A DNA stretch of 64,000 nt from Sipunculus nudus (Eukaryota > Annelida > Sipuncula > Golfingiida > Sipunculidae): assembly GCA_026874595.1 (NCBI GenBank), contig CM049317.1, positions 43,052,401 to 43,116,400 of the forward strand. The letters are read 5' to 3'. The notes under the pieces were generated by a model. That model worked only from the letters and a program-made list of their open reading frames with translations. It was not told the origin of the DNA and searched no databases. The position numbers and the translations under genes were made by a program. Below, one piece after another: positions 9,676 through 58,744 of this stretch; positions within the stretch are counted from its first letter, which is position 1, and each line of letters starts with the position of its first letter.

Positions 9676-12600
9676 CACAGGCGAAATTAGAATCCAGGCA
9701 GATTTTAATTCCGCCTAAGCGAGATTGAAATTTTGATTTCGCCTTGGCCAGATTAAAATTTCAATCTCGCCTAGGCGGATTTAAAATCTGCCTAGGCAAG
9801 ATTGAAATTCTGATTCTGCCTAGGCAAGATTATGATTATATGTAGGATTTCAATCTCGCCTAGGCAGATTTTAAATCAGCCTAGGTGAGATTGAAATTCT
9901 GATTTTGCCTAGGCCAAATTAAAATCCTAGCTATAAATCTGCTTCATTCAATTCTTTGGTTTAATCATGCTGATTGTTTCGTAATAATTGCAATTTATTC
10001 TCACATTTGGTGTGGAAAGGTTAAACTGTTGAGAACTGTATATCTGAACATCTTAATGAATAGGACTATTTTAGGAATTTAAGATCTGCCCCAGCCAACA
10101 AGACGGAAATTTTGATTTTTCTTTGTTTTAAGTGTAAGTCTTACAGAAACTATGGATTTTGAAAGATTATAGTTTATTAAGAACACTATATTTTAATGAA
10201 CATAAAAAATAAATGGATTTTTATAATCACTGATGCTAAAGAATGCTTAACAGAAGTAATGGAGTCTTTTCTGACAGGTGGGTAAAATTTTTAAAAAATA
10301 CGTCTTGTTTGTTACTCTCAGAATATACATTTCCTAGTCTGTTTAATTCCCTCATTTATTTATAGGTTAATATTTGTAATTTTTCGCAGCTACACAATGT
10401 CCACATAAAAGAAATAGGGGAAAAAATACATCTCAACAATAAGGTTATTCTTAAGTAGATTAGTGTATTTCAGGATATTTTAAAATAAACTGTTTCTCTT
10501 GGTAACATCTAAACTATAATATTCAGATATTCTCATGTAAACTAGTGTATTTCAGGATATCCGAAAGTGAACTGGTTGACTTCTGGATTTCCCAATGTGA
10601 ACTAGTGTACATTGGAATATTCACATCTCAACCGTGACTAGCCCCATCTCAACCGTTTAGATGGGAATTCCCATCTCAACTAGTTAAGTTCCGAACTCAA
10701 CTGGAAAATATTTAGTACACTACCAGTTTTACAGATTTGTACATTAACATATTTCATGGGGTTTTTTTTGTCTGCTAAAATCAAATTGCTATTAAAAAAT
10801 GTTAAAAAATAAAAGACAACTCCATTAAACCCATGAGTGTAATAATTCAGAATTTAATCTAAGCTCAAGTAACTTGTTTTAGGCACTAATATTATTATGT
10901 TATCGTTAAATATTAAGATTATACTTTTTAAGATATACATTATTATGAAGCAATCAGCATGAGTAAATCAAACAACTGAATGAAGCAGATTAATAGCTAG
11001 GATTTTAATATGGCCTAGGTGAAACAGAATTTCAATCTCGCCTAGGCAGATTTTAAATGCTTCTAGGCGAGATTGAAATCTGACATATACTCATAACAGG
11101 ATTTCAATCTCACCTAGATGGAATCAAAATTTCAATCTCACCTGGGCGGATTTTAAATCCATGATTAGCATGATTTTTTTTTTTTAAAATCCAATGTTAT
11201 CATTAAATATTAAGATCATACTTTTTCAGATAAACATTATTATAAAACAATCAGCAAGATTAAACCAAAACAAGGGACCCATGGGTCATGGCGCTCAGCT
11301 GTCACATGTGATAAAAAAATATGATTTAGAAATGAGGCACATGCTTGTTTTGTGTGGAAATAAATATAAGCTGTATTATGAGTTGTGGGTGTTTAGCTTA
11401 TGTATGATTTTGATAGTACCTTTGGAGACAGGGAAGAGGATTGATTTCATTTATTTTATTAACAAATGGAGTGCTATTGTCACACAGATTTTGACTTGGC
11501 CATATAACTTATAAGCAGAACATATAATATAAGAGTTTAACTATTTATTAAAAATAATTACAAATTGTCCCAAATATAATTTTTATTAAAAATAATAAGA
11601 GAATTGTATGATTTTTTAAAATAAAATACAACTGAAATGACTATTAAAATAATATCAAAGAATATATTCATGAATGCATTCATTAATACATTTTGAAAGT
11701 ATTTGCACTTGTATTCATATACTTTCATTTTTACCTGAATTCCCATTCTTATGCATGAAATTTTATAATGGAGTACATATTCATATTCATATTCAAATAC
11801 ATTTGCAAAGTATTCGCACCATGTCTGGTATTTATTCAGTTTTCACCAAACAATGATGTTGAGAATCCAGAATATACAAATTTCACACATTTAAATAATG
11901 ATCATAAGTACCTGGTTTAATGGCTTTTATTCATATTAAAAAAAATCAATGTAATATATTCATTTTGGACTAATTTCACATCAATGTACACAATAGACAC
12001 AGCAGGAATCTAGATTAATATTATCAACTGCATCTTTGTCTATCATTAATTTCCTTTGTATGATCCCTAATGATTAATAATGAATAATATGATTTATTTT
12101 TTTATCATTAAAATTGAACTGAAAAATACCATAGGTGACTGCATGGTGTTATTTGGAATACGTGACATTCTATCAATCTATACAAGATTCTTATATCATC
12201 AGTAACTGCAAGTTAATTTCCTGTTATTATCAACTAACAAATTCCTTTTCCATTTTTCTTTACTTTGTTATTAAAAACCAATAAAAATCTATTAATTTAT
12301 TGTTTATTGTTATGTTGTTAGTTAAAACTACTAGATGAGTTGGGTTGGACACCTGGATCAACTGTGGCTGGCCATAAGCTACCTGGCTGCCCCAGTGTAT
12401 GCCTCGCGTCAAGCGTGCATAATTTGATGAAAGGTCAACAAGGTCAACTTACAGGTGACTCAAGAGGGGCTGGGGAGAGCCAAAGTCTGACAGGGTCTCA
12501 TAAAAAACATTAATAAAAGCTACAATTTTTGGCCAATTTCTTTCAGCTTTCTAAACTACAAAGATGAAATCCTTATGTGTGCATGATATGAAAATTATAT

Positions 12601-14103
12601 CAACAGTGCTCACAGGAAACAAACGTGCCATGGTCAAAGTTGGGCAAAATTTAAGGTACTAATTTTATATTTATACTTATAACTTATAAAAATTCAGAAC
12701 TAATTTTTGGTATTCAATTGAATCTTGATAAAATAATGTTACATTCCTGACAAAAAATCTCTAGCTTCAGCGATCCTCTTGTTAAGGGAGTAAATATATT
12801 TCTTGATTTTTTACAAAGTGCATTATTTTTGGGCCCATAACTTAAAACAATTACGCAATACTGACATCATTTCTGGCATGTGCATAGACAATGTGTAGAA
12901 AAATATGTATATTATATATGATTAAAGTCAGATCAGTGGTTTTGATATTAGGCAGTCTTGAAGTGTAACAATGGGTTTTTAATGGATAAATGAAGTTTTT
13001 CATTAATATCTCGAAGGTATTAGGTCCTAGTGACCAAATTCTTGGCATGTGGGGGGGATTTTGGAGACATCTAATTGTATGCCAAATTTTAGGAACTGAG
13101 AGCTGAAGCTGGGGAGCTGAGCTCTTGCAAACTGCATAACACTAGCTTCATGTAAACAATATGTTACATGGTGCTTGAAAACTTGAATAAAATCTACAGT
13201 TTTTGATCAACTAGTTTCAAATTTTGATGTTAACAGACAAAATGCTAACAAAAACATGCTGTAAAAATTAAATCCACAGTACTTACAGGAAAAAAACGTG
13301 CCATGGTCAAATTTGGGCAAAATTGAAGGTACCAATTTTTTATTTTTGTTAACATTTAAAAAATTTAAAAGATTTTCATCTAATTTTGGGTATACAATTT
13401 ATTTTGATTAATTAAAGTTATATAACTGGAAAAAAGTCCATAGCTTTAACATGTTTTGTGTTAAGTGATCAAATATCTTTCCTGATTTTTTACAAAATGC
13501 ATTATGTTTGGGCCCATAACTTTTTTAAATTATATAATACAGACATAATTTCTGGCATGTACATAGGAACTATATAGGGGAATATTTATGGTAAATATGA
13601 GGAAAAACAGATAAGTAGTTTTGATATTAGGCAGTCCTGAAGTGTGAAAATAGGTTTTTAATAAAAAATTGAGGTTTTTCCTTAATTTCTCAAAGGAATG
13701 AAGTTGCAAAGACTCAGTTTTCGGCTTGGTAGGAGATCTTGGGGACATCTAACATTATGCCAAATTTTGGATTCCTAGGTCTTTCAAAACGTGCCACATC
13801 TACGGACGGACGGACAGACGACGGACAATGGACCACGACTATAGCTCAGATGACTTATAGTCAGCTGAGCTAAAAATGAATGAAGCAGATTAATAGCTTA
13901 GGCAAATTTTAAATCCGCCTAGGCAAGACTGAAATCCTACATATAATCAAGACAGGATTTTAATCTCGCCTAGGCGGAATCAAAATTTCAATCTCGCCTA
14001 GGAAGATTTTAAATCCGCCTAGGCCAGATTGAAATTTTAATCTTGCCTAGGCGAAATCAAAATTTCAATCTCGCCTACCGCCTGGATTCTAATTTCGCCT
14101 GTG
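9676..14103. mobile_element. Foldback/hAT-like element J, with nested insertion
   Basis: The ends are inverted: CACAGGCGAAATTAGAATCC at 9676 and its reverse complement ending at 14103. The flanks ACATATGT (9668-9675) and ACATATAT (14104-14111) suggest an 8-bp duplication with one mismatch, though the flank is TA-rich. Terminal arms (9676-9990; 13877-14103) are internally repetitive, made of CGCCTAGGCG-type palindromes alternating with GATTTTAAATC and GAGATTGAAAT. An extra right-arm copy at 10965-11165 and a direct repeat of the inner segment (10893-10960 against 11196-11267) show a duplicated right end. Element A (11270-13876) sits inside. No coding capacity seen. Confidence 0.75.
11270..13876 (+). 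mobile_element. Complete A element inserted in J
   Basis: The 5' end is ACAAGGGACCCATGGGTCAT, with the palindrome GACCCATGGGTC and then GCTCAGCTG. The 3' end is the hairpin TAGCTCAG...CAGCTGAGCTA followed by AAAA. CAGCTGAGC at the 3' end is the reverse complement of GCTCAGCTG at the 5' end. J sequence resumes at TGAATGAAGCAG (13877), which is continuous at about 10979 in the uninterrupted J copy, so the borders are directly visible. No target duplication is evident. The interior has two A modules (about 12590-13100 and 13250-13876). Confidence 0.82.
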
Positions 14104-15402: not shown

Positions 15403-16450
15403 AACTAGAATATCAGCAGAAGCTGACAAAAGCCCTCAGCCAAAAGAACAGTGTTAAGAGGTGGTAACAGTAACAAGTACTAAATATCTGTTCTCACATG
15501 GATGTATATCCGTACATGTCTCAGTTATAAATTTAAAATGGAGAGGTATGCACCATGATTCATAACAATCCACCAAATGCTTCCTGAAAAATAAGCTTCT
15601 AAGTTTTATTCTATTACAAGCTCTGTGACCTTGAAAAGTAGGTCAAGGTCACCCATCTTCGAACTTGACTTAGATTTTGTCGATATACATCTTCACCAAA
15701 GAAATAAAATTCCTATTGTGAATCCTTTTAGAGATATCCTGCTCACAAGGCCAAAATTGAAAAATTAAAGAAAAATTAATTAAAAATCAGAAATTGTAGG
15801 TGGCACCCCCAAACTTGGGCAGCAGTAAAAGACCATCAGTCCCTATGATCATAGTAAGTATTGTGAAAATCTACCCAATGGTTCATGAGAAATAAGCTTT
15901 CAAATGTTTTTTCTATAATCAGCTCTAAAACGTAGAAAAATAGGTCAAGGTCACCCATCTTCGAACTTGACCGAGATTTTGTCAATATACATCTTCACCA
16001 AAAAAAATAAAATTCCTACATTGAATCCTTTTAGAGTTATCCCGCTCACAAACCCAAAGTTGAAAAATCCAATAAAAATTCTTTAAAAATCAGAAATTGT
16101 AGGTGGCGCCACCAAACTTGTGTAGCAGGTACAGACTATCAGTCCCAATAATCATAGTAAGTTTTGTGAAAATCCACCAAATGGTTCCTGAGTAATAAGC
16201 ATCTAAGTGTTTTTCTATAATCGGCTCTAAAATGTAGAAAAATAGGTCAAGGTCAACCATCTTCTAACTTGACTGAGATTTTGTCGATATACATCTTTAC
16301 CGAGGAAATAAAATTCTGACGGTGAATCCTTTTCAAGATATCCCGCTCACTAGGTAAAAGTTAACGGACGCCGGACTGACGGATGGACGGATGGACGGAC
16401 AGCTTGGGTGACGACAATAGCCCATCAGCCTAAGGGCTGAGGGCTAAAAA
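15403..16450 (+). mobile_element. Complete B element
   Basis: Starts ACTAGAATATCAGCAGAAGC (palindrome CAGC-AGAA-GCTG) and carries GCCCTCAGCC at 15432-15441. Ends with hairpin TAGCCCATCAGCC...GGGCTGAGGGCTA and AAAA. GGCTGAGGGC is the exact reverse complement of the 5' stretch. Three internal modules of about 300 bp carry AGGTCAAGGTCACCCATCTT, and GGTGGCGCCACC lies at 16102. A GGACGGAC tract precedes the hairpin. Second copy: 35723-36412. Confidence 0.8.
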
Positions 16451-17836
16451 AAACTAGAATACTGGTAGTGGACAAGTGACAATGTGTATCCGCCGAAATC
16501 AGAGTGGGACGGGTGAAGTGAGGCATGGATTGAGTAACATGGGGAAATTAAGTGAGGTGTGTTGTATATTAGCATGGATGTCTGCAGCCGAAATGTGTAT
16601 GTAGGTTGTGCCACCTACCACAAAATCCAGAAAGCTATCAAAGTGGTATACAAATGCAAAGTCAAACCACTGCCGAGTGATTTTATCCCACGGCAGCCAA
16701 ACAGACGGACGCGGTGTAAAAATGGTTGCAGGTGGTGCCACCACCGTATGATAAAAGAGCTATGTGAGATCTATACACACGCAAAATTTTGGCCCAATTG
16801 GTCAGACGGTTCCAGAGATATGAGCTTGGATGTCTGCAGCGTAAATGTGAATGCAGGTGGCACCACCTGTCATAAAATCAAGAAAGCTATCCATGATGTA
16901 AAAACCTGCAAAATTTTAGGCAGATAAGTCAAACCAATGCAGAGATATGAGTGATTTTATCCCACGGAAGACAAACAGACGGACACTGTGCAAAAATGGT
17001 TGCAGTTGGCGCAACTAGTTTTGCATATGATAAAGAGCTAAGTGAGATTTATACACATGCAAAATTTTGGCCCAATCGGTCAAACAGTTGAAGAGATATA
17101 AGCCTGGATGTCTGCAACATAAACATAAATGTAGGTGGCGCCTCCTGTCATAAAACAAGAATGCTGTCAAGGATGTATAAACCTGCAAAATTTCAGGTGG
17201 AGAAGTGAAACCACTGTCGAGATATGAGTGATTTTATCCCAAGGCAGATGAACAGACGGATGCTGTGCAAAAATGGTTGCAGGTGGCGCCACCAGTTTTG
17301 CGTATGATAAAGAGCTATGTGAGATCTATACACATGCAAAATTTTGGCCCAATCGGTTTATCAATGAGATATGAGCTTGGATGTCTGAAGCGTAAACGTG
17401 AAAGTAGGTGGTGCCACCTGTCATAAAATCAAGAAAGCTGTCCAGGATGTATGCACATGCAAAATTTCAGGTGGATAAGTCCAACCAATGCAGAGATATG
17501 AGTAATTTTATCCAAAGGCAGATGAACAGATGGACGCTGTGCAAAAATGGTTGCAGGTGGCGCCACCATTTTTATGTATGTTATAAAGCGAAGGGCTACA
17601 TTTGTGCAAAATTTTTTCCGGATCGGTCAAACGGTTCCCCAGATATGGGTTAATGTGTCAAAACAGACCCACAGATGGACGGACTGTAGATAGGAAAGGT
17701 CAGAGTCAATACAAAATCGGGGCGTAGCAGTTCACATGTGACCCGAACATATTCCTGGGTGTCGTTAAATTCCGCCCAGTGGTTAATGAGGAGTTCTCCG
17801 GACACCTACACGGCGGCGGTGATGTCCGGCTAAAAA
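16451..17836 (+). mobile_element. C element with ~280-bp tandem modules
   Basis: Begins ACTAGAATACTGGTAGTGG directly after B. Modules repeat GGTGGCGCCACC, GATCTATACACATGCAAAAT and GAGATATGAG. Near the end is the palindrome TTCACATGTGAC, then a hairpin CCGGACA (17798-17804) / TGTCCGG (17823-17829), then CTAAAAA. The 5' partner of the hairpin arm is not clear in this family. Other copies: 21232-22484 and 40620-42035. Confidence 0.72.
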
Positions 17837-18613
17837 CAGTATCTGCAAAACTCTGTTTTAGCGGATACAATAATGCCAAAACATGGCATCTTCAAGATTA
17901 TTTCTTGAATCACTATTGAAAAGTTTTGCACATTGGAGTTTTCAGTACATGCTTCATTTTATTCACCGAAATAAAAGATTCAGTGAATTTGATCAAATAA
18001 AAACATCTTTTCAAATAAAGTAAACACACTGTTAGTTGAATGAGGGACAAACAATATCATTGTGCTAATTACTTTCTCAGCTATGATTTATTACTCGAAT
18101 TAATAGTCAATTTTCACCTGGTGAAGCTTTTACTCTTCTGAAGTAAGGAATTACTTATTTGATGAACATCCACACTTTCATAGCAAAACCCAATTTTGTT
18201 GACACAATTAAATGTGCACTTTAATCCTTAGCAGAGGAGAAGCCTGCTAGTAGTGGCCAAGCTGAACCAAGGCAAGCTGCCTGGAGGGGGGTTACATAAT
18301 ACAAGTGAAGGCTGTACTGTTGGGTGGGCTAGATGTAAACAACATTTGACATGGTGTATTTAAACTTGAATAAAAGCTGCTCTTTTCAATCTATTCCTTT
18401 GAAATAGATTCTAAAAGATTAAATTCTTATGTATATATGCTGTGAAAATTAAATCAACAGTGCTTACAGGGAAAAAGGTGCCGTTGCCAAAGTTGGACAA
18501 AATTTAAGGTATAGATTTTTTATTTATGCTAATAACTTGAAAAATTTGCAAAATTCAGATCTAATTTTAGGTAAACAATTGAATCTTGATTAAATAAAGT
18601 TATATCCCTTAAA
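17837..18613 (+). mobile_element. A-related fragment
   Basis: 18005-18613 is similar to 57605-58085 (shared GAGGGACAAACAATATCATT and AAGCTGCCTGGAG). It is cut at 18614 by the start of an E 5' end. 17837-18004 is unassigned. Confidence 0.6.
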
Positions 18614-18790
18614 ACAAGGCCTACAGGCCTAATGCCAACCAGTGCATTGGGAAATACACCAGGTATAATGCTTCAATGCTGGACCATGACTTCTCATGTA
18701 TATGACCAATGCAGGTACTAAAGATTTTGAATTAGAAACAATTACACAAACATCACTTCTGAAATTCTGGCATGGATGCACACAACACAA
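18614..18790 (+). mobile_element. E/G element 5' end fragment
   Basis: Starts ACAAGGCCTACAGGCCTAAT (inverted AGGCCT). The same 5' end is at 21060, 34629 and 52959. It is interrupted by a D element. Confidence 0.7.
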
Positions 18791-20817
18791 CTAGACATTT
18801 CTTGGCACCGCAGGTGCCAGACTATCCCCAGACATAGTAGCCCCCCCCCCCTTTAAGAATAGACCCCATTTTTAGCAGCATATACTGACACTTGGCATAT
18901 TCATTGTTTCTTCCATCTATCAATCCACAATCTTGTTGAAGATGTTGGTCCTGTGACCTTGATCTTTTTAAAGATGTGTCCTGTGACCTTGACCTTTGAC
19001 CTCATGACCCCAAAATCAATTTGGGTCTTGCTTTTCCAATGGGACATATACAAGTCAAGTTTGAAATCTATACATCAATGAAGCAGGAATTATCATCCAG
19101 AAACTAATTTTTGGACAGATGGCTCCTGTCACCTTAACCTTTGACCTTGTGACCTCAAATTTGATAGGGTTCTTCCTCTCTTGGTAGGTGAACTATATGT
19201 ACAAGATGAAAGACATGAAATGAAATGTTTGGCTGAAAATGCATCCACATCTATTTAAAGATGTGTCCTGTGACCTTGACCTTTGACCTCATGAGCCCAA
19301 AATCAATTCTGGTCTTGCTTTTCCAATGGAACATATACAAGTCAAGTTTGAAATCCATACATCAATAAAAGCAGGAATTATCATCCAGAAACTAATTTTT
19401 GGACAGATGGCTCCTGTGACCTTCATCTTTGACCTTGTGACCTCAAAATTGATAGGGGTCTTCTACTCTTTGCAGGTGAACTATATGTGCAAGATGAAAG
19501 ATCTGAGATGAATTGTTTGGCTGAAAATGCATCCACCATCTTTTTAAAGAGGTTTCCTGTGACCTTGACCTTTGACCTCATGACCCCAAAATCAATTCTG
19601 GTCTATCTTTTCCAATGGGTCAAATACAAGTCAAGTTTGAAATCCATACATCACTCAAAGAAGAAATTATCACCCAGAATCTAATTTTTGGACAGATGGC
19701 TCCTGTGACCTTCACCTTTGACCTCAAAATTGATAGGGTTCTTTCTCTCTTGGCAGGTGAGCTATATGTGCAAGATGAAAGATCTGAGATAAAATGTTTG
19801 GCTGAAAATGTATCCACATCTTTTTAAAGATGTGTCCTGTGACCCTCTACCTTTGACCTCATGACCCCAAAATCAATTTGGGTCTTGCTTTTTGAATGGG
19901 ACATATATAAGTCAAGTTTGAAATCAATACATCAATAAAAGCAGGAATTATCATCCAGAAACTAATTTTTGGACAGATAGCTCCTGTGGCCTTGACCTTT
20001 GACCTTGTGACCCCAAAATTGATATGGATCATAAACTATTGGCAAGTGAGCTATATATTCAAGATGGAAGACCTGGGATGAAAGTTTGGCTTAAAATGCA
20101 TGGCTTAAAATGCATCCACAGTATCTTTTAAGATGTGAGTCCAGTGACCTTGACCTTTGACCTCATGACCCTAGAACCTATAGGGTTCTTACTTTAGTGG
20201 TGGGCCATACATAAGTCACGTTTGAAATCCATATGGCTATCAACACTGGAGATATCATAAGAGGTGTGTGATTTTCACCAAATATGGACACATTAAAGGT
20301 CAAGGACACTCATGGTAAAGGTCATGACCCAAATGTAAACAGACCTCATCCCATAACCCATTTCTCTACATGTGCATAATATGAAAGAAATCTGCCCATT
20401 AGTTTTTGACTTATAATGCTTACAGTACTGTTAAGTGGCAATTATGGGGGTATTAAAAGGCGCAAAAAACAAGAAAAGGATAATAGGTGGCGCCACCAGT
20501 TTCCGGTATATCACAAGGCTATCCAAGATCTTCGGTCACCTTGATTTTTGGACCAGTCCATGCAAGCTTACTTGAGATATTTAAGAATTTGTGTTATTTT
20601 CAGCAAAAATGGACCTATTCAAGGTCAAGGTCACTCTCCTAGCATAGGTCATAACCCCATTTTAAATAGGCTTCGTCCCCTCACCTATATCTATACAAAT
20701 GTAAAGTTTGAAAAAGATCAGTGATATATTTTTTGAGTTATCCTGCTCACAAGGTTTTTCTGCGATGGGACCGTCGTGAAACCATAGTATCCATGACTTT
20801 GTCCGGGGATACAATTA
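18791..20817 (+). mobile_element. D element with nuclear-receptor-like repeats
   Basis: The 5' end has CTAGACATTTCTTGGCACC, the inverted repeat GGCACC-GCA-GGTGCC, then TATCCCCAGACA. A poly-C tract follows. The 3' end is a hairpin with GGGGATAC near 20810. The interior is tandem ~145-bp modules containing TGACCTTGACCTTTGACCTC, with GGTGGCGCCACC at 20486. Compare the better preserved copy 28836-30850. Confidence 0.75.
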
Positions 20818-21059
20818 TCAAGATATTGGAGGTTTTGTATTACATTTTAGAATATTCTGGGGGGTACCATAGCTCAGAGGATATAGGTTGCAGTGACCTA
20901 ATTTCAGGTTTCCAAGGAGATTAAATTTATTGACCTCCCTGGATAGTCCAGCAGTTACGATTTGTGACCTGCTGGCTAACAGATGGCCGGACGGACGACG
21001 GACAAAGCGCAATTCCTATACCTCAGTTGACTTACAGTCAGCTGAGCTAAAAAAAAAAA
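20818..21059 (+). mobile_element. F element 3' fragment
   Basis: Contains GGGGGGTACCATAGCTCAG and GATTTGTGACCTGCTGGCTA. Ends with the hairpin arm GTCAGCTGAGCT and a run of A at 21048-21060. Confidence 0.7.
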
Positions 21060-23241
21060 ACAAGGCCTACAGGCCTAATGCGAACCTGTGCAAAGTTTAG
21101 GAGTATGAATGGAGGTTTATTATTAAAATTTAATATTGATCCTCCTAAGTCCTGCATATCTACCTTTGTCATTATGATTTCAGCAAAATGGACGTTTCTG
21201 ACCTGCAAGTTTTGGGCTAGGATATTTTAAAACCAGAATATGGGTAGTCAACAAGCCACTATGTGTATCTGCAGAAATCTGAGTGGGACGGGTGAAGTGA
21301 GGCATGGATTAAGTGGCAAGGGGAATACAGCGTGGTGTGTTGCATATTAGCATGGATGTCTGCAGCTTAAACGTGAATGTAGGTGGTGCCACCTGTCATA
21401 AAATCGAGAAAATTGTCCAGGATGTATAAACCTGCAAAATTTCAGGTGGATAAGTCAAACCACTGCTGAGATATGAGTGATTTTAACCTAAGGCAGATGA
21501 ACAGATGGACGCTGTGCATAAATGGTTGCAGGTGGCACCACCAGTTTTGCCTATGATGAAGAGCTATGTGAGATCTAGACACATGCAAAATTTTGGCCTA
21601 ATCTGTCAAACGGTTCCCGAGATATGAGCTTGAATGTCTGCAGAGTAAATGTGAATGTAGGTGGCGACACCTGTCATAAAATCAAGAAACCTGTCCAGGA
21701 TGTATAAAACTTCAAAATTTCAGGTGGATAAGTCAAACCACTGCTGAGATATGAGTAATATTATCCCAAGGCAGGTGAACAGATGGACGCTGTGCATAAA
21801 TGGTTGCAGGTGGCACCACCAGTTTTGCCTATGATGAAGAGCTATGTGAGATCTAGACACATGCAAAATTTAGGCCCTATCGGTCAAACGGTTCCCGAGA
21901 TATGAGCTTGGATGTCTGCAGAGTAAATGTGAATGTAGGTGGCGCCACCTGTCATAAAATCAAGAAAGCTGTCCAGGATGTATAAACCTGCAAAATTTCA
22001 GGTGGATAAGTCAAACCACTGCTGAGTTATGAGTAATATTATCCCAAGGCAGATGAACAAATGGACGCTGTGCAAAAATGGTTGCAGGTGGCGCCACCAT
22101 TTTTATTGTATGTTATAAAGCTATCAAAGGGCTACATTTGTGCAAAATATTTAGCCTGATCGGTCAAACGGTTTCCGAGATATGTGGGTTTATGTGTGGA
22201 AACAGACACACAAATGGACACTGGGCAGCAAGGAAAGGTCAGATGTCAACCAAAAATGAAGGCACAGCAGTTCACATGTGACCTGATGATAAACCCGATT
22301 TGCTTAAAATGCAACCCAAATTTTTTTCAAACAGTTGAAAGATATAGTTCCAATAATCTGGGAATTCTGCATCTAAACATTGTATCCAGACGTCTAGACG
22401 CTGTGTCTAGATGTCTAGACACATTGTCAAGAACCCCCCCCCCCCCCCCCCCGCCAGGTCAGTTGCCATGGTGATGTCTGGACCCCACCTGTTTGTACTG
22501 AGTGACCTCTTGACTTGGCTGCATGAAGTCAAATCTGTTTTCAAATACAGAAGCCTTTTTCAATTGGCTACAATGCTTTTTTAAAACTGTATTTACCCAA
22601 TATATTCTTATAAAACTGGCAGAACCCTACCATAGAATAATTCTTGTAAAGTTTAAACCAATCAGCTGAACAGTTTCATCATAAATCAGTGTATAAGCTA
22701 GAAGAGTTTAAAATTACATTTTCGCTTGTAAAAAACACATCAATATAGGTGGCGCCACCAATATCTCAAAATCAGATATGACATATGTGACAAACATTGG
22801 TAAAAAATTTGGTCATAATAGCTCTAGCCGTTTCTGAGATTTTAATTTTAGTGTGCTTTTTTGGACAGATGACTAAGTTCAACCTCCTGTAACTCAGCCA
22901 AAAATCTCCGAACTGGAACCATTTGAACAAACTTGAGAGATATTGTTCCAGAGATCATTTCTGTGAAATATTGTACAATTTGGCTGGACAGTTTCAGAGA
23001 AGAAGATTTTTAAAGGTTTTTAAGCTTTTTCTCTATAAAATCTAAATTAATGCAGATACCCAATAATAAGCTCCAGGCCACCAAGTTTCACATGTGACGA
23101 ATTCTTACATGTAATTTGGAGCTGCTAGCTCCGACAGTTTTCTGACTTACAGCCATGGACGGCGGAAAGCCAGCCCTGGACGGCGGACGGCGGATGGACG
23201 ACTCTGCGCCATCGCATAAGCTCACAGGTTCGCTAAAAAAA
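21060..23241 (+). mobile_element. E/G element, complete ends, with nested C
   Basis: The 5' end is ACAAGGCCTACAGGCCTAAT followed by GCGAACCTGTG. The 3' end is CACAGGTTCGC followed by TAAAAA. The last two 11-mers are exact reverse complements, which joins the former E and G pieces into one element. A C element occupies about 21232-22484. A GGACGGCGGACGG tract precedes the 3' end. GGTGGCGCCACC is at 22748. Confidence 0.75.
21232..22484 (+). mobile_element. C element nested in E/G
   Basis: Starts CCAGAATATGGGTAGTC and ends near GGTGATGTCTGGAC, a decayed form of the C hairpin. GGTGGCGCCACC lies at 21938 and 22087, with diverged forms at about 21379, 21531, 21661 and 21810. A poly-C tract is at 22435-22452, preceded by a stacked GTCTAGAC palindrome at 22390-22420. 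Confidence 0.65.
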
Positions 23242-28785: not shown

Positions 28786-28835
28786 AAGGGAGCTATGTCA
28801 ACCTGCAGAATATATGGCCATGACCAACCATATAA

Positions 28836-30850
28836 CTAGACATTTCTTGGCACCGCAGGTGCCAGAGTATCCCCAGACATAGTACGCCCCCCCCCCCCCC
28901 TTTTAAGAATAGGCCCCAATTTTTAGCAGCATATACTGACACTTGACAAGCAATTATTGTTTCTTCCATCTATCAATCCACAATCTTTTTGAAGATGTTG
29001 GTCCTGTGACCTTGACCTTTTGGCACATCACAAGGCTATCCAAGATATTGACAGGGGTCTTCCTCTATTGGCAGGGGAACTGTATGTGCAAGATGAAATT
29101 TTTGGACAGATGGCTCCTGTGACCTTCACCTTTGACCTTGTGACCTCAAAATTGATAGGGTTCTTCCTCTCTTGGCAGGTGAACTATATGTGCAAGATGA
29201 AAGATCTGAGATGAAATGTTTGGCTGCAAATGCATCCACATCATTTTTAAAGATGTGTCCTGTGACCTTGACCTTTGACCTCATGATCCCAAAATCAATT
29301 CAGGTCTTGCTTTTCCCAATGGGACATAAACAAGTCAAGTTTGAAATCCATACATCAATAAAAGCAGGAATTATCATCCAGAAACTAATTTTTGGACAGA
29401 TGGCTCCTATGACCTTCATCTTTGACCTTGTGACCTCAAAATTGATAGGGGTCTTCCACTCTTGGCAGGTGAACTATATGTGCAAGATGAAAGATCTGAG
29501 ATGAATTGTTTGGCTGTAAATGTATCCACAATCTTTTTAAAGATGTGTCCTGTGACCTTGACCTTTGACCTCGTGACCCCAAAATCAATTGGAGTCTTGC
29601 TTTTTCAAAGGGACATATATAAGTCAATTTTGAAATCAATACATCAATAAAAGCAGGAATTATCATCCAGAAACTAATTTTTTGACAGATAGCTTTTGTG
29701 GCCTTGACCTTCACCTTTGACCTTGTGACCCCAAAATTGATATGGATCATCCACTATTGGCAAGTGAGCTATATATTCAAGATGGAAGAACTGGGATGAA
29801 AGTTTGGCTTAAAATGCATCCACAGTATCTTATAAGATGAGAGTCCAGTGACCTTGACTTTTGACCTCATGATCCTAGAACCTATAGGGTTCTTATTTTA
29901 GTGTTGGGCCATACATAAGTCACGTTTGAAATCCATATGGCTATCAACAATGGAGATATCATAAGAGGTGTGTGATTTTCACCAAATATGGACACATTAA
30001 AGGTCAAGGCCACTCTCATGGTAAAGGTCATGACCCAAATGTAAACAGACCTCATCCCCTAACACCATCTCTCTACATGTGCATAATATGAAAGAAATCT
30101 GACATTAGTTTTTGACTTATAATGCTCGAAGTACTGTTAAGTGGCAATTATGGGGGTATTAAACGGCGTAAAAACAAAAAAAGGATAACAGGTGGCGCCA
30201 TCTGTTTCCGGTACATGACATTACTATCCAAGATCTTCAGTCAAGTTGATTTTTGGACCAATCCATGCATCCCTTATTGAGATATTAATGATTTTGTGTG
30301 ATTTTCACCATATATGGCAATATTCAAGGTCAAAGCCACTCCCATAGGAAAGGTCATGACCCCAATTTAAATAAACAACATCCCATAACCCATATCTATG
30401 TATATGCATAATATAAAAGAAAGCTGTCCATTTGTTTTTGACTTATAATGCTCACAGTACTGTCAAGTGGCAATTTTGGGGGTATTAAACGGCACGAAAA
30501 CAAGTCAAGAATAATAGGTGGCGCCACCAGTTTCTGGAACATGACAACCCTATCCATGATCTTCCATCAACTTGATTTTGGGATCAATCCATGCAAGATT
30601 TCTTGAGATATTTAAAAATTTGTGTGATTTTCCCCAAATTGGACCTATTCAAGGTCAAGGACACTCTCCTAGTACAGGTTATGACCTCATTTTAAATAGG
30701 CGTCGTCCTCTCACCCATATCTATACATATACCAAGGTTGGTAAAGATCCGTGAAATATTTTTTGAGTTATCCAGCCAACAAGATTTATATGCAGCAGCG
30801 GGACCGGTATGAAAACATAGTATCCCCCGACTTTGTCTGGGGATACAATA
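28836..30850 (+). mobile_element. Complete D element
   Basis: The 5' end has CTAGACATTTCTTGGCACC, GGCACC-GCA-GGTGCC, then GTATCCCCAGACA at 28867-28879. The 3' end is the hairpin GTATCCCC (30820) ... TGTCTGGGGATAC (30834-30846) followed by AATAA. The last 13-mer is the exact reverse complement of the 5' stretch. The interior has ~145-bp modules with TGACCTTTGACCT, then two or three ~300-bp modules with GGTGGCGCCAYC (30190, 30517). No coding sequence. Other copies: 18791-20817 and 55761-56840; a 3' part at 48361-48815. Confidence 0.85.
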
Positions 30851-34628: not shown

Positions 34629-34831
34629 ACAAGGCCTACAGGCCTACTGCAAACCTGTGCAATGGGATATACATCAGGTATAATGCTTCCATGCTGGACC
34701 ATTTCTTTTCAAGTACATTTGTGTTGTGTATATGTACAATGCAAGTACTAAACATTTTGAACCTGAGTACAAGCACCAATTACACAAACAATATTGCTGA
34801 AATACTGGCATGGGTGCATACAACAGAAAAA
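34629..34831 (+). mobile_element. E/G element 5' end fragment
   Basis: ACAAGGCCTACAGGCCTACT followed by GCAAACCTGTG, the partner of the CACAGGTTTGC 3' end at 57590. It stops where an F element starts. Confidence 0.7.
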
Positions 34832-36800: not shown

Positions 36801-37990
36801 ACAAGTGACCCAGGGGTCATGACGCTCAGCTGACCAGGAAGACATTGACAAAAGTAATTTTATCATCTGAATGTCAAATTTGAATGAAATACTTTTTCCA
36901 AGCTTGACCTTTTGTATAAAATCATCCAATATTCATTGGGGTACTATGGAGCTCTGTAGCATGAAGGATATGGGTAACAGACACCTATTTTCAAGGTTTA
37001 CAAGATGACTTTTCAGGGGTCTCCCAGCATGTCAAAAAATAAAATTCTAGGTCCAGTTATTATGATTTGTGCCCTGTTAACAGATGACCAAATGTTTATT
37101 CTGGGGGGTATTTCAAAGCCGCATAGGATGAAGGATATGGGTAACAGAGATGTAATTTCAGGTGCACAAGGAGACTTTTCAGGGGCCTCCCAGCATATCA
37201 AGAAAGGAGATTCTAGGTCAAGTCATTATAATTTGTGCTCTGTTAACAGATGACCGAATCTTTATTCTCGGAGCCATAGCATGAAGGATATGGGTAACAG
37301 AGACCTAATTTCAGATTTCCAAAGAGACTTTCCAAAGGCCTCCCTGCATGTCAAGAAAGAAGATTCTAGGTCCAGTCATTATGATTTGTGCCCTGTTAAT
37401 ATATGACCAAATCTTTATTCTGGGGGGTACTTCAGAGCCCCATAGCTCACAGAATATGGGTAACAGGGACCTTATTTCGGGTTTCCATGTAGACCTTTTA
37501 TGGGCTTCCCTGGAGGTGAGGACAGAAGATTCTAGGTCGAGTCATTATGATTTGTGCCCTGTTTACAGATGACCAAATGTTTAAAGATCACAAAAGTAGA
37601 GAAAAAAAAATCGTAAAAAATAAAAAAAATATAGCTGGCGCCACCAATCTCCAGAAATTGATGAAACACTCCATGATCAATATCCATGCAAAGAATCATG
37701 GTGATTAATGCATTAGTTGTTCAGATACTTGAGCTTTTGTATTAAATTTTGCATTATTCTGGGGGGTACTTCAGAACCCCATAGCTCGAAGAATATAGGT
37801 CACAGTGACCTAATTTCAGGTTTACAAGGAGAATTTCCATAGACCTCCCAGGATGTCAAGTAAGAAGATTCCAGGTCTAGCGGTTACGATTTGTGCCCTG
37901 TTAACAGACAGACACCTGGATGGCCGGACGGACGACGGACAAAAGGTGATCCCTATTGCTCAGATGACTTTCAGTCAGCTGAGCTAAAAA
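36801..37990 (+). mobile_element. Complete F element
   Basis: The 5' end ACAAGTGACCCAGGGGTCAT is followed by GCTCAGCTGAC; the 3' end GTCAGCTGAGC is followed by TAAAAA, giving an exact 11-bp subterminal inverted repeat. Modules of 150-370 bp contain GGGGGGTACTTC, CCCCATAGCTC and GTTACGATTTGTGCCCTGTT. A GGACGGACGACGGAC tract precedes the end. Confidence 0.82.
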
Positions 37991-39745: not shown

Positions 39746-40436
39746 AAACGTGCCATGGTCAAATTTAAGGTACTGATTTCATATTTATGGGAATAACTTA
39801 TAAATTTGAAAAATTCAGATCTAATTTTGGGTATACAATTGAATCTTGATTAAATAATGTTATATCCCTGAAAAAAGTCTCTAGCTTCAGCAATTTCCAA
39901 GTTAAGGGAGTAAATATATTTCCTGGTTTTCTACAAAGTGCATTATGTTTGGGCCAATCAGTTCGACAAATTATGCATTACTGACCTAATTTTAAATATG
40001 TACATAGGAAATGTATGGAAAAATATGCATACTTAATATGATCAAAAACAGATTAGTGGTTATGATATTAGGCAGTCTTGAAGTGTAACAATGGGATATT
40101 AATGGAAAACAGAGGTTTTTCCTTAACAACTCAACGGAACATAGTACTAGTGACCTAATTTTTGGTATGGTAGGAGATTTTGGGGACATCTAACGGTAGG
40201 CAAAATTTGGATTTGTAGGTCCAACGGTTTTAAAATGTGCCTTGTTGATGGACATAGGATGGACAAAGGACCATGACTATAACACTTAAATAAAATGCTG
40301 TAAAAAAATTCAAATGAGCATAAACTAAATTTCTATGAGCACTTTTGTTAGATCCTAATATTTTATATCATTAAGGATTCAAATCCTGATAATTTTTTTT
40401 TTGTTGAAAAAAAATTTTAAATTGTTAAAGTCTAAA
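39746..40436 (+). mobile_element. A fragment without ends
   Basis: 39746-40290 follows the A module (CGTGCCATGGTCAAATTTAA; GTTTGGGCC). The hairpin end is lost. 40291-40436 is unassigned AT-rich DNA. Confidence 0.6.
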
Positions 40437-42552
40437 ACAAGTGACCCATGGGTCATGACGCTCAGCTGACTGGGAAGAGATTCACAAAAGGAAATTTTAT
40501 CATCAGAATGGTAGTATATACCCATTAAGCTGAAGCATCAAACAGAATAACCAACAGGCCAAGATTTAGTCTGTATTTATATATCTCAAAAATAGAGAAA
40601 AAATGTGTAAACTTTAAAAACTAGAATACAGGTAGCCAACAAGTGACTACGTGTATCCGCCAAAATCAGAGTGGAACGGGTGAAGTGAGGCATGGATTGA
40701 GTGGCAAGGGGAAATAGAGTGAGGTATGTTGCATATTAGCATGGATGTCTGCAGCCTAAATGTGTGTGTAGGTTGTGCCACCTACCACAAATTCTGAAAG
40801 CTGTCCAAGTTATATACATATGCAAAATTTTAGGCAGAAAAGTCAAACCACTACATGTATATGAGTGATTTTAGCCCACGGCAGACAAACAGACAGACGC
40901 AGTGCAAAAATGGTTGCAGGTGGCCCCTCCAGTTTTGTGTATGATAAAGAGCTATGTGAGATCTATACACATGCAAAATTTTGGCCCAATCGTTCAAACG
41001 GTTCCTGAGATATGAGCTTGGATGTCTGCAGTATAAACTAGAATGTAGGTGGCGCCACCTGTCATAAAATCAAGAAAGCTATCCAGGATGTATAAAACTG
41101 CAAAATTTTAGGCAGATATGTCAAACCACTGCCAAGATATGAGTGACATAATCCCACGGCAGACAAACAGAATCTGTGCAAAAATGGTTGCAGGTGGCGC
41201 CACCAGTTTTGCGTATGATAAAGAGCTATGTGAGATCTATACACATGCAAAATTTTGGCCCAATCAGTCAAATGGTTCCCGAGATATGAGCTTGGATGTG
41301 ATCAGCGTGAACGTGAATGTAGGTGGCGCCACCTGTCATAAAATCAAAAAAGCTATCTAGGATGTATACGCATGCCGAATTTTAGGTGAATTAGTCAAAC
41401 CACTGCAGAGATATGAGTGATTTTAACCCAAGGCAGATGAACAGATGGACAGTGTGCAAACATGGCTGCAGGTGGCGCCACCATTTTCGTGTATGTTATA
41501 AAGCTATCCAAGGGCTACATTTGTGTATAAGTTTTTTCCTGATTGGTTGAACGAGTCCGGAGATATAAGCATGGATGTCTACAGCGTGAACGTGAATGTA
41601 GGTTGCGCCACCTGTCATAAAATTAAGAAAGCTATCTAGGATGTATACGCATGCCGAATTTTAGGTGAATTAGTCAAACCACTGCAGAGATATGAGTGAT
41701 TTTAACCCAAGGCAGATGAACAGATGGACACTGTACAAACATGGTTGCAGGTGGCGCCACCTTTTTTGTGTATGTTATAAAGCTATCCCAGGGCTACATT
41801 TGTGTAAAAAATTTTTCCTGATCGGTCAAATGATTCCCGAGATATGTGGGTTTATGTGTGGAAACAGACGCACAAATGGACGCTGGGCAGAGAGGAAAGG
41901 TCAGAGGTCAAGGTAACTTGGTTAAGCACCAGTTCACATGTGACCTGATAATTTGTATAAGTTTCGGAAAAATCCATCTGGTAGTCTCAGAGGAGTTCAC
42001 CGGAAACGAACCCAGCGGCGGAACCCTGTCAAAAATATACAATTATGATCTAATTTCAGGTATACAACTAAAACTAAGTTGAATATAGATCTATATATGT
42101 GTTTGAATTAAGCTCTCTAGCTAAACAAATTATCATGTTAAGTGAATAAATATATTTCCTGATTTTTGACAAAGTGCATTTTGTTTAGGCCCATAACTTC
42201 AAAGATTTATGCAATATTGAGCTAATTTCTGGCATGTACATAGGAAATATAAGCTTGAATAGTTATTTCAAATATGAATAGATTAACTGTGGTTTTCGTA
42301 GTGGGCAGTTTTGAAGTGTAATGTACAATAGGTTTTTACTGAAAAACTAGATTTTTTTCCTTAATTTCTCAAAGGAACGAAGTCACAGTGACCCAGTTTC
42401 AGGTTTTGAAGGAGAAATTATGGACATTAACTCAATGTTGAATTTTTGATTGGTAGGTCTAATGGTTTCAAAACGTGCCCTGTTAACGGAAGGACGACAA
42501 ACAAAGGACCATGACTTTAGCTCAGATGGCTTATAGTCAGCTGAGCTAAAAA
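40437..42552 (+). mobile_element. A/F element with nested C
   Basis: The 5' end is ACAAGTGACCCATGGGTCAT, then GCTCAGCTGAC. The 3' end is GTCAGCTGAGC, then TAAAAA at 42552. C occupies 40620-42035. The left arm is F-like and the right arm A-like, so the two families share termini. Confidence 0.72.
40620..42035 (+). mobile_element. C element with regular palindrome spacing
   Basis: Starts CTAGAATACAGGTAGCC. GGTGGCGCCACC lies at 41048, 41193, 41322, 41471 and 41750, with a one-base variant at 41601. Intervals are 145, 129, 149, 130 and 149 bp, so the real unit is a dimer of ~278 bp. The end is near CAGCGGCGGAACCCTGTC, a decayed hairpin. Confidence 0.75.
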
Positions 42553-52600: not shown

Positions 52601-52958
52601 GCGGTCTTTGGATTAGAAACCTCTACAGGCGTAGAGGACCTTGCAGCACAAAATAAATAGGGGCACCTAATGGGGAAATATTAAAATTATTAATTATTCA
52701 GCTTAATAGGGCATAATACCGCGAAATAAAACAAACTTGTCCTAGAAAAGCATACCATCGATATGTCTGCCGAATTTGGAGAGTCAAATCAGAACGGAAG
52801 CAGGTAAACCATGGTCTAGAAATGACCCAACTCCATATTAATTATATAGATTACCTGAAGGAATGGTTCATAATCTGCATTCCAAGCAATGCCAGGTAAA
52901 AACTATGATGTTATCAATTTTAACGATAGACATTATATGGAATAAATAGCAAATATAA
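52601..52958. other. Intron, nothing recognised
   Basis: No gene or repeat identified. Confidence 0.4.
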
Positions 52959-53634
52959 ACAAGGCCTACAGGCCTAATGCAAACCGGTGCAATAGCATAT
53001 GCACCAGGTATAATGCTTCAATGCTAGACCATTACTTTTCAAGTTTGTGTAATATGTACATGAACAACGCAAACACTAAACATTTTGAACAAGAACCAAT
53101 TACACAAACATCACTGCTGAAATACTTGCATTGGTGCACACAACACAAAAATTATTGTAGGTGGCGCCACCAGTCTTGTATACAAAAAAGCTATCTGAGA
53201 TGTATACATATGCCCAATTTCAGGCTGATATATCAAACCCCTCCTGAGAAATAAGCAGGCACATACACTGTGCAAAAGTCATTGTAGGTGGCGACAATAG
53301 CTTGTGAATGAGAAAGCTATCTGTTATGTATTAATATGCCCAATTTCAGGCTGATATATCAAATTCCTCAGTAGAATTAAGCAGGCACATACACTGTGCA
53401 AAAGTAACTGTAGGTGGCGACACCTATCTTGTGAACGAGAAAGCCATCAATGATGCATAGACAGGTCAAAATATCAGGCCAATACACCAAACTTCCCTTG
53501 AGTTTGATGCACTGGGCTTAGGTGAGAAGGGCAGTTTCCCGAGTGAACTGTGACAAATTGCTGGCTCAAGCTACTGCACTAAGTGAACTCTTGACCTGCA
53601 CCTGGCTAGACTGAGTGAACCTTTGACCTGTATC

Positions 53635-55149
53635 CAGGGTTGGCAAGTTTTAGGCAGGAAGGTTTTAACCACAGGTTATAACCTGGTTAAAACTGCCCCG
53701 CCTAAAACAGGTTTTAGGCACCAAAAGTGCCTAAAACCTACATTTGTTTAAATTTTTAACTTAAAGATTTATAAAAGGTCAAGTTAATGCAGTCACAAGG
53801 CTTATTTGCAGGGCTTCTGGAAGGTTACAGGTACTGGTATTAGCAATGCATGATTTCCTGTTGGCTGGCATTATGCAGTCTTCAAAGAGCCTCTATAGGT
53901 TTCTTGAGCATGAGACCATGTTTGTGTGGCACACAGTTTCATTGGCCAGGGTAATTTTATTATCAGGGCCCTTTGGGTTTCCTGCTACCTGGAATGATGT
54001 AATACAGCCTCCAGTATGCCTCTAGTAAGGCAGGGTATTAGAGGGGGAGGACTTGCTTGATCAGACCAGTTAATGACTATTTTTCAGGGTGATGGGGTTA
54101 AAAGACCCAATGGTCATAAATCCTACTGCTGTGTCCTAGTAGATGTTCATGTGAACTTTCATACATGACTAGGATGATGCAATCAAAGCCTTTGCCCTGA
54201 AAACTGTTCTTCAGCCAACTTCTACTGGGTTATGCATGAAGGTTTTTCAGGCGCTTAAGGCTGAATATGGCCCAAAAGTGATTGGTTTGTAACATATTCA
54301 CTGCAATATATTTTCGCATTTTTCAGTTTTATAATAATTACAGTGTTTCATGAGGGTTCCATTTTCACAATCTCATCATACAGTTAACAGAGCATTTCCA
54401 GCATTATGTAGACAACATGTATGACTTATGTCAAAATCTTAAAATTTGAAAAGGGATGACCTAGCTAAGGGAATAAAAAACTAGTGGAAATTCTTGTTCA
54501 TTATCAGATAATGTAAAAGATATTATCATATTTTTAGTTTATGGCTAGCATAAAAGATCTGTAATAATTTATAGAATCAATCCTTTGCTTTTTGCTATTT
54601 GAAGATACAGGCATTCAAAGCATACATGATATGTTAGTGTGACTACTCTACAGTATATATGACTATTCATCAGTACAAATAGAACAACTTTTTTCAATTA
54701 AGAAAAACATCATCGCATATATCACAAAATTTAATCTCTTGTGATCAAAAATCCAATCAAAGTATCTGGTTACAAGCTTACAGTATAAGCATATGCAAAA
54801 TGGAAGACCTGAGAACATAATTTGGGGACACAAGCTAAAACTGTCAGAGAACTGTGTTAATATGGAAAACCTGAAGTGTTTGTTTCTTTTTTTGTGTGTC
54901 AGGGTTTAATTTGTTTAGTTTGAATAAAGTGTTCCTCACTTTTTAATTTGCTGAGCATATTTTTTTAATGCATTCAGCTGTGTAACAATAAAACATAGTT
55001 AAAGTTCATGTCGTAGGTGAGGGTCAGTAAGGTTTTAGGCAGTTAAAGGCAGTTTTAGGCAGGTTATAACCTATTTTAGGCAGTTAAAGGCAAGTTTTAG
55101 GCTCTGCCCTGTCAAAAACAGGTTTTGGGCAGCCTAAAGCCCAACACTG
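53635..55149. mobile_element. hAT-like non-autonomous element M
   Basis: The ends are CAGGGTTGGCAAG and ...CCAACACTG, with flanking CCTGTATC (53627-53634) and CCTGTACC (55150-55157), an 8-bp target duplication with one mismatch. The host sequence without the insert (TTGACCTGTACCTGGCTG) occurs elsewhere in G. The subterminal arms are dense in TTTTAGGC/GCCTAAAA and GGTTATAACC. hAT elements typically have CAG.GTTGGC-like ends and 8-bp duplications. No transposase. Confidence 0.82.
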
Positions 55150-55760
55150 CCTGTACCTGGCTGCAATGAGTGAACTCTTGACCTGTTGCATAATCTGACA
55201 CAGTTGGTAGTCTGCCAAAGCTTTTGGGGCCAAATCTGATGCAGTGGGCAGTCTGGCAAAACTATAAACTGCACTGAGTGAACTCTTGACCTATACCTGG
55301 CTGCACTGAGTGAACTCTTGATCTGTTGCCTAATCTAATACAGTTGCCAGTCTACCAAAGCTATAAATAGATCCAGGCTGACCTTTTGCCTGTTATCAAA
55401 TCTGAAATAGTTGGCAGTCTGCCAAGCTATTTAACCTAAAATCTAAATATCTAGTGGCATGATGTAAGAGAAGTTGATAAACTGGTGCCAGGCTAGATGT
55501 AACTGCTTCACACAGCTAACATATATGGTAAAATGACTCAATTCAATCTCCATAACACAGTCAAAAATCATTCATGTGGAACCATTAAAACAATTATTAT
55601 AAGAATTATTGTGGGGATTAGTGGTGTCAGTCGTTTTGCAGGTTTATAACTCATATAGGAAGATACAGCAAAATGGCTAAGTTCAGCCTCCATAACTCAG
55701 CCAAAAAGCACTGAACCAAAATCATTTGAATAAACTTAAATTATCAACATCTAAGGATAA

Positions 55761-56840
55761 CTGGATATTTCTTGGCACCGCAGGTGCCATAGTATCCCCA
55801 GACAATTACCCCCCCCCCCCCCCAGCCTTGAAGAATAGGATCCCATCTTGAATTCAGATGCAGAGACTGACACTTGGCAAGCCACCATGGTTTCTTATAA
55901 GTATGGGCATATTTAAGGTAAAGGTCACTGTCATAGGAGAGGTCATGAACCAAAGATGCATCTAACTTGTGGGTTTGGTGACTGTACCTCAAATTCTTTT
56001 TGAGTTATTGCCCTAATATCATTTTAGCATAATCGCTGCTGTGACCTTGAAAAATGCATCTTGAAAAAATGCATCAAGGTCATCCATGTTCTAACTTGAC
56101 CTAGCCTTTGATAGGATGCATCAAACCTCTGGGTTTGGTGACTGTACCTCAAATTCTTTCAAAGTTTTTGCGTTAACATCATTTTAACAAGAAAACAACA
56201 CAAGGTGGCGCCACCTGTCTTCTGCAAAAGACAAAGCTATCCAAGATCTTTGGTCAATTTGATTTTTGGATCATTCCATGTATCCCTTACTGAGATATAA
56301 AAGATTTTGTGTGAATTTCACCAAATATAGGAATATTCATGGTCAAGGCCAATCTCATAGGAAAGGTCATGACCCCAATTTAAATAAACATCATCCCATA
56401 ACCTATATATATGTATATGCATAATTTTAAAGAAATTCTGTCCATTAGTTTTTGACTTATAATGCTCACAGGACTGTCGAGGAGCAATTTTGGGGGTATT
56501 AAAAGGCACGAAAACAAGTAAAGAATAATAGGTGGCGCCACCAGTTTCTTGAACTTGACAACCCTATCCATGATCTTCGATCAACTTGATTTTGGGATCA
56601 ATCCATGAATTTGTGTGATTTTCCCCAAAATTGGACCTATTCAAGGTCAAGGACACTCTCCTAGTAAAGGCCATGACCTCATTTTAAATAGGCGTCTTCC
56701 TCTCACCTATATCTATACATATACCAAGTTTGGTAAAGATCTGTGAAATATTTTTTGAGTTATCCCACCAACAAGATTTATATGCGGCGGCAGGACTGTC
56801 ATGAAAACATATTATCCCCCGACTTTGTCTGGGGATATAA
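55761..56840 (+). mobile_element. D element, internally deleted
   Basis: 5' GGCACC-GCA-GGTGCC and TATCCCCAGACA; 3' hairpin with TGTCTGGGGATA, an exact 12-bp partner. Lacks the DR1-rich modules of the longer copies. GGTGGCGCCACC at 56204 and 56531. Confidence 0.82.
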
Positions 56841-57604
56841 TTAATGTGTGAGATTGACCCAAGAAATTGGACCAGTGGTTTTTGAGAAGAAGATCTCTGT
56901 AGCCACTGAGCTTAAATGGGCTGTTATGGCATATGACTAAATTCAGCTTCTCATAACTTGGCCAAAAGTCACCAAACTGAGACCATTTGAACAAACTTCA
57001 GAAAGGACTACCCTAGGATTATTTCTGTGCGATATTAAACAATTTGGCCATAAGGTTTCAGAGAAGAAGTTTTTTGTAGCCCTCAATATGATACGGGCAC
57101 TGATGACCCCCGTACAAAAAAGCCGATGCAGGTGGAGCCACCAACACCTCAATTTCAGATATGACTCATGTGACCAACACTGGCATAAAATTTGGTGATG
57201 ACAGCTCCAGCTGTTTCTGATATTGTAATTTTAGTATGCTTTTTTGGACAGATGACTAAGTTCAACTTCCTGCAACTTGGCCAAAAATCACTTAACTTGA
57301 ACTATTCGGACAAACTTGAGAGAGATTGTTCCAGGAATCATTTCTGTGAAATATTGGACAATTTGGCTGAACAGTTTCGGATAATAAGATTTTTAAAGGT
57401 TTTTTAACTTTTTCCCTATAAAATCTAAGAAAATGCATTTAGCCAAAAAATAAGCAAAGTCTGACAGAGTTTTTTATGACTAATTTTTTGCATAAAATTT
57501 GGTGATGCTCACTCCTGCCATTTTCAAGATAGTTGGGTTAAAGTACAGAGGAAGGTCACCGGACGCCAGCACACCAATGCATAAGCTCACAGGTTTGCTA
57601 AAAA

Positions 57605-58516: not shown

Positions 58517-58744
58517 AGCTTTAAAGTCTATACATACCTTTCTGATAAAATGTCTCGACAAATTAAGATATTTTAAAGTCTTTTAGATTTTTCTTGGGGT
58601 CTGGGATCCTGGGTCCGTGTTTTACACACTGCCGCTAAGATATGACCTCTATGGTCTGTTATTTATATATATATATATATATATAAATATATATATATAT
58701 ATGTATATAATATATATATATATATATTAATATATAAGGATATA

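Follow-up and report, generated by a model that had tools for sequence, protein, structure and literature searches.

A 64,000-nucleotide stretch of the Sipunculus nudus genome (contig CM049317.1 of assembly GCA_026874595.1, positions 43,052,401 to 43,116,400; hereafter the window) carries several families of repeated elements, labelled A/F, E/G, B, D, H and X, which are very probably non-autonomous Helentron elements (HINE) of the Helitron2 group, whose strand would be peeled off and inserted between Ts in one polarity. The terminal design is a known one and the families are further families of a known kind. The point of weight is their strand coherence: three families with unrelated ends, balanced over the 1.43 Gb of the genome, largely agree block by block on the examined part of chromosome C1. 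These shared blocks hint that something about the chromosome decides the orientation of insertion, and we tentatively suggest a chromosomal strand cue, most likely germ-line transcription, with unrelated families of common imperfect hairpin geometry entering the exposed strand and leaving a fossil record of which genome strand was open.

Each of the end motifs quoted in the original prediction is found at least once in the window, and the terminal design that it described for all families, a palindrome plus a short repeat at one end and the reverse complement of that repeat at the other, holds for A/F, E/G, B and D, is weaker in H and fails in the further family X. The pairing of ends was tested in nine elements (B, E, F, G, H, X and three D) against 2000 random 60-mers of the window, a draw that included the families' own ends; the own-end match beats nearly all random 60-mers in eight elements, with 0-9 of the 2000 equally good for seven of them and 20 for H. 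A matrix of 17 palindrome ends by 18 hairpin ends is near block-diagonal, the within-family scores being 9-13 for A (only 6-10 against the mutated end at 39026), 9-10 for B, 13-14 for D, 7-8 for H, 4-11 for E/G and 6-7 for X, and the between-family scores 3-7 with the exception of A 34831 against B (8 and 9). The matrix and the pairing in eight of nine elements therefore indicate that several unrelated families share one terminal design, with exceptions. In four elements (F 40436, B 15403, D 28835, E 21059) the two subterminal inverted repeats (subTIRs) match each other unbroken over 10-14 nt; the hairpins are interrupted. A family-blind search for a hairpin followed by TAAAA returned 27 matches on the plus strand, ten of them ends of A, B, E or X, and 14 on the minus strand, against 2-7 in Markov shuffles, which are a lenient control because the minus-strand count also lies above them.

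The proposed Helentron-associated class is borne out, the layout matching published Helitron2/Helentron ends, and the proposed direction has to be reversed: what was taken as the 3' hairpin is the Helentron 5' end, what was taken as the 5' palindrome is the 3' palindrome, and the Helentron direction is the minus strand of the window. HINE are defined by subTIRs and a 3' palindrome (Thomas and others, PMC4067079; papers are cited here by PMC number). The elements start with Ts (TTTTTA in A, E and B) followed by a subTIR of ~8-13 nt. In A, B and D, and in H at least in the copy at locus L030, this subTIR folds back on a nearby internal repeat to give a 5' hairpin. They finish, X excepted, with a second subTIR complementary to the first and then a 12-15 nt palindrome, usually with CTTG or CTAG beside TT. 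A microsatellite in the 5' end and central tandem repeats are present as in HINE, the former ACGG-like (GACGGA-like) at the ends of A, B and E and not seen at the ends of D and H, the latter with units of 126-337 bp in most families within the window; the flanks are T-rich on the element strand. Canonical Helitrons (Helitron1) were considered and rejected, as the elements lack a 5' TC, have a hairpin at the 5' end too where Helitron1 has a single 3' one, are flanked by TT where Helitron1 inserts between A and T, and end in CTTG in A and E/G; the CTAG ends of B, D (two of three), H (one of two) and X (three of four), compatible with the Helitron1 CTRR, speak for them. Inverted repeats are present at both ends, as in cut-and-paste or foldback transposons, and an origin of that kind is hardly credible: it requires symmetric terminal inverted repeats, and here they are asymmetric, one terminal and the other ~20-30 nt inside behind the palindrome, with outer sequences that differ. 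Viral contigs scanned with two of the end patterns gave no match, nor did one window open reading frame (ORF) in a tblastn search against phages.

Fold z values are -4.65 to -5.98 for the hairpins of A, B, D and the H copy in L030. Taking one representative per family, A, D and the complete L030 H fold as single-stranded DNA into 8 bp, one mismatch, 3-5 bp and a 3-nt loop in unrelated sequences, and B into 6 bp, a one-base bulge, 6 bp and a 4-nt loop. The imperfect geometry shared by A, D and H fits recognition of shape and may be chance. The interiors, predicted to be unrelated, are not wholly so: GGTGGCGCCACC, a 12-bp palindrome, occurs at 19 places from window 16102 to 56531, with CTATCCA ~30 nt past it in some copies; as it is found across B, D, E, F, G and X, these interiors share a module.

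Candidate autonomous partners were sought in the same genome, where there are at least 143 Helitron_like_N matches, seven of those listed lying in open frames of >2200 aa. Both of the proteins scanned (2235 and 2426 aa) contain Helitron_like_N, PIF1, OTU and endonuclease (Exo_endo_phos) domains, the Helentron hallmark, and judging from these predicted proteins autonomous Helentrons exist in the genome. Thirty Rep loci were taken as 3.4-3.6 kb around the Rep domain, almost wholly within the gene, and two of them also as 10-kb stretches reaching 0.7-2.0 kb past the open frame. Allowing one mismatch, X words occur twice in these loci and A words eight times, six of the A words being listed at nearly one place beside the Rep domain and therefore not as ends. 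One H element adjoins a Rep gene in L030 and is at most a candidate for belonging to it.

Several results count against the shared design and its assignment to HINE. The ends of X, which has the TAAAAA end in common with other families, are not paired, 695 of the 2000 random window 60-mers being as good. The E/G hairpins are weak (z of -0.94 and -1.21), and the window copy of H forms no hairpin (fold energy 0), unlike that in L030. End words of E, B and D are absent from the 30 Rep loci, stretches that barely extend past the genes. Covariation of the paired ends, raised with the original prediction, is unsupported in E/G: among seven elements with both ends pairable by position, the single variable subTIR base (usually C or T, within a CpG) has its counterpart at the opposite end in four (window 21059 and 52958, L049 and L058) and lacks it in three (L039, L062 and L070).

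A fuzzy scan with the end signatures placed 35 of the 36 window termini, including four X starts, on one strand, the sole opposite terminus being an E-type hairpin end near 2630 on the minus strand of the scan; ten further rows that repeat A and D hairpins from the other strand were dropped. Across the genome (1,426,538,692 bases in 153 contigs) the hairpin-end patterns are strand-balanced, with 10561/10256 places for A, 2599/2668 for E and 1685/1652 for D, and 0/0 for the reversed controls. The block analysis covered, for every pattern, the first 100 places listed, which all fall on C1 and extend to 3.24 Mb for A, 16.3 Mb for E and 19.2 Mb for D; other chromosomes are covered by the window alone. 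On C1, A, E and D lie mostly in shared same-strand blocks, the shortest of 7 kb and the longest of 1.06 Mb. In the combined lists 72 places from 0.096 to 1.155 Mb form a plus block. A minus block of 14 follows (1.237 to 1.471 Mb), of which five same-strand D ends spaced 2.6-2.8 kb at C1:1407723-1418656 (G000) are probably one tandem array; next come three blocks (4, 4 and 11 places), three short runs (2, 1 and 1), one block of 21 and, up to 3.26 Mb, three more blocks (4, 3 and 5). Where blocks of three or more places adjoin, the sign changes seven times, in both directions, and the gaps spanned measure 12-82 kb.

Agreement between places decays with distance. Pairs from different families agree in 21 of 22 cases at <5 kb and in 78 of 83 at 5-20 kb, and at 20-50 kb 45 of 50 A-E and 40 of 46 A-D pairs do so. 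Beyond 0.5-1 Mb agreement is about one half for E-E, D-D, D-E and A-D pairs, and stays at 63-76% for A-A and A-E pairs because the A list is short and mostly plus. D places share the strand of the nearest E within 50 kb in 30 of 37 cases, against a maximum of 29 and a mean of 20.7 in 99 rotations of the E strands, and in 30 E-anchored 3-kb loci (two of which overlap) all library matches bar two are on the anchor strand. tRNA-like B boxes (4416 places; 201 for the reversed control) do not follow the blocks: they share the strand of their closest element in 6 of 9 comparisons up to 20 kb, in 11 of 24 up to 50 kb and in 21 of 45 up to 100 kb; no B box is listed in the first 3 Mb, and the control is therefore without coverage of the largest block. 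Compared with one another, after removal of near-duplicates and one alternating array, B boxes agree in 7 of 11 pairs lying 5-20 kb apart, in 8 of 9 pairs lying 20-50 kb apart and in about half of the more distant pairs. A search of titles and abstract openings, in literature mostly without subscription papers, found no report of Helitron strand blocks, and none is described in the available portions of PMC5371812, PMC13286980, PMC5148889 and PMC11136912.

The window overlaps a GKAP-like gene with minus-strand exons at C12:43043044 (profile 228-272) and C12:43055852 (profile 193-229; window 3452-3562). With a probable further exon at window 9098-9379, the gene crosses the left edge of the window and reaches position 9379 or beyond, a relation that covers the left 9.4 kb of the window; earlier parts of its protein would be expected further right. 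Read in the Helentron direction, the window elements are sense to this gene. Composition of the target is unlikely to suffice as a cue, because A- and T-runs of four or more on the plus strand of the window are about equal (576 and 563), though A-runs are commoner among runs of two or more (3668 against 3186). Short blocks with sharp boundaries speak against replication zones, and transcription is therefore the favoured cue; transcription of host genes in the germ line, acting through insertion or through selection, is a lead.

Other results tell against such a cue or limit the blocks themselves. The element strand equals the coding strand in seven of nine gene-linked loci (two-sided p 0.18) with two contrary, and this sample is not clean, mixing loci inside genes (the window, L070, L084, L078 with a 42-bp match, and the contrary L081) with loci that have a coding exon only in their vicinity (6.5 kb away for C1:11.19, 4 kb for C1:17.78, 21 kb for the contrary C1:7.29, and the weak L062). 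Agreement is only 29 of 42 for D-E pairs at 20-50 kb and 26 of 43 for E-E pairs separated by 50-100 kb, and C1 has mixed stretches at 2.06-2.23 and 7.9-8.8 Mb, the latter with E and D places 11 kb apart on opposite strands.

Further searches concerned the gene content of the loci. Elements occur in four of 30 presumed intronic stretches, each lying between exons that were taken to be parts of the same gene, and among the listed matches to kinase, ion-channel, phosphatase and RRM domains three genes fall on the covered part of C1. Three minus-strand RRM matches 7.7 kb apart at C1:1186094-1201421 (G000) lie in the gap between the first plus and minus blocks; these rows near 1.19 Mb were rejected as a gene and, from their spacing and repeated scores, are probably LINE-like (long interspersed nuclear element). 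A strand-composition test was set aside, the introns being without clear skew and the skewed "non-element" part of the E loci being largely repeated E interior. Of 147 ORFs in the E loci, 40 chosen by length and complexity were scanned against Pfam, yielding one useful weak match (Hydrolase_6, E 0.0016, below its cut-off); five others with E of 0.016-0.1 were taken as chance.

The blocks could also have arisen if the strand of insertion were random and antisense intronic copies were removed by selection. The sense orientation of the window elements to the minus-strand GKAP-like gene would fit, as would the mixed stretches of C1, which are expected of intergenic DNA, and intronic strand bias is known for other transposons, as titles and abstracts indicate. 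This explanation is rather unlikely in view of the near-complete coherence of 35 of 36 window termini and of 72 places in the 1.06-Mb block.

Selection usually leaves strand coherence less complete than that. An unlikely explanation is that the blocks record the direction of replication forks, the element strand entering one arm of the fork as IS200/IS605 does in bacteria (PMC5371812); the decay of coherence over ~0.5-1 Mb in E-E, D-D, D-E and A-D pairs would agree with this precedent. Blocks as short as 7 and 40 kb, which small inversions could mimic, argue against it, as do sign changes of both kinds over gaps of 12-82 kb where termination zones are expected to be broad. Self-seeding, in which new elements enter the T-runs of older ones and take over their strand, is suggested by the head-to-tail joins of E beside an F end (21059), F beside an H end (36800) and X beside a B end (16452). 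It is nonetheless improbable, since in the window self-comparison some ten element runs are separated by other DNA and yet agree in 35 of 36 termini, and the near-equal long A- and T-runs offer it no strand, runs of two or more being somewhat richer in A. An artefact of assembly or inversion, which the sharp block boundaries might suggest, is very improbable because coherence cannot arise from rearrangement alone and because B boxes on the same contig ignore the nearest element within 50 kb, none being listed in the first 3 Mb.

As to mechanism, a Helentron Rep-helicase-endonuclease would nick at the 5' hairpin and a single strand would then be peeled off; the second subTIR and the palindrome would mark where the element stops, possibly because the second subTIR pairs with the first and so unfolds the hairpin there, a step proposed in PMC3627910, and the strand would be inserted between Ts in one polarity. 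If the coherence is true genome-wide and its cue is found, this would tell the strand and the process of rolling-circle insertion in animals, and old insertions would be a record of the direction of germ-line transcription or replication.

Table 1. Elements and gene features in the window (window coordinates; for elements, strand - is the Helentron direction).
Feature	Position	Strand
GKAP/DLGAP-like gene exon (profile 193-229)	3452..3562	-
Probable exon of the same GKAP/DLGAP-like gene (profile 151-190, below Pfam cut-off)	9098..9379	-
A palindrome end (Helentron 3' end): palindrome GACCCATGGGTC and subTIR	11269..11303	-
A hairpin end (Helentron 5' end): TTTTTA, subTIR and internal inverted repeat	13843..13876	-
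B element, both ends, 303-bp central repeats	15403..16450	-
X element adjoining B end; TAAAAA end, without shown subTIR pairing	16452..17836	-
G palindrome end (AGGCCT-AC-AGGCCT)	18613..18789	-
D element, central repeats ~289 bp	18790..20816	-
E element, both ends; nested X 21231 to ~22300	21059..23239	-
D element, both ends	28835..30848	-
G palindrome end; F palindrome end (34831) directly adjoining	34628..34830	-
H element; B fragment (35749-36412) inside	35336..36797	-
F palindrome end abutting H end	36800..36834	-
F/A element, both ends; nested X 40619 to ~42035	40436..42552	-
G/E element, both ends; nested D 55760-56840	52958..57604	-
A hairpin end	58492..58525	-

The E element at 21059 starts in an A-run adjoining an F end at 21020-21053. 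Elsewhere in the window there are a 39-bp satellite of ~117 copies (3817-8378), two 57-bp arrays (27519-28779 and 42854-46043, the latter leaving a 1048-aa open frame) and a CCTAGG-rich inverted-repeat family in both directions (9700-11160 and 13896-14077). The sequence GCTCAGCTGACTAAAAAACAAGGGACCC at L001 (G000:C7:80671245) looks like a head-to-tail join of two A ends, of the kind expected of tandem insertion or a circle junction.

The closest counterparts by description are the Cg_HINE of the Pacific oyster (PMC7492417, Vojvoda Zeljko and others). Both have a 5' subTIR (11-12 bp in the oyster) with a complementary internal repeat, a microsatellite (GTCC-type in the oyster), satellite-like central repeats, a 3' subTIR followed by a palindrome, T-rich insertion sites and several unrelated families per genome. 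They differ in that Cg_HINE are reported to integrate in both orientations, and the available text describes no local strand blocks. Helitron2 (PMC3627910, Bao and Jurka) likewise has terminal inverted repeats that are asymmetric and a hairpin at either end, with compensatory changes in two Culex elements, and its Chlamydomonas examples are inserted after TTTT as here, whereas the present families show no protein within the window. DINE-1 and the mite HINE (PMC4067079) resemble the present elements in their subTIRs, 3' palindrome and TT insertion, in families set by subTIR identity and in the tandem repeats that some copies carry; for them Helentron partners sharing their ends are on record, and none was found here, where few flanks beyond the Rep genes were covered. 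The bivalve Pearl elements CvA, CvE and CvG (PMC7492417, PMC11136912) are also alike by description, with short conserved ends that enclose a core of tandem repeats. Co-resident families with different subTIRs, which the original prediction took to suggest several transposases or one recognising structure, are already on record as seven families in a mite (PMC4067079) and eleven elements in the Pacific oyster, some of them mutually unrelated (PMC7492417), and the coexistence of many such families in S. nudus therefore needs no new explanation in itself.

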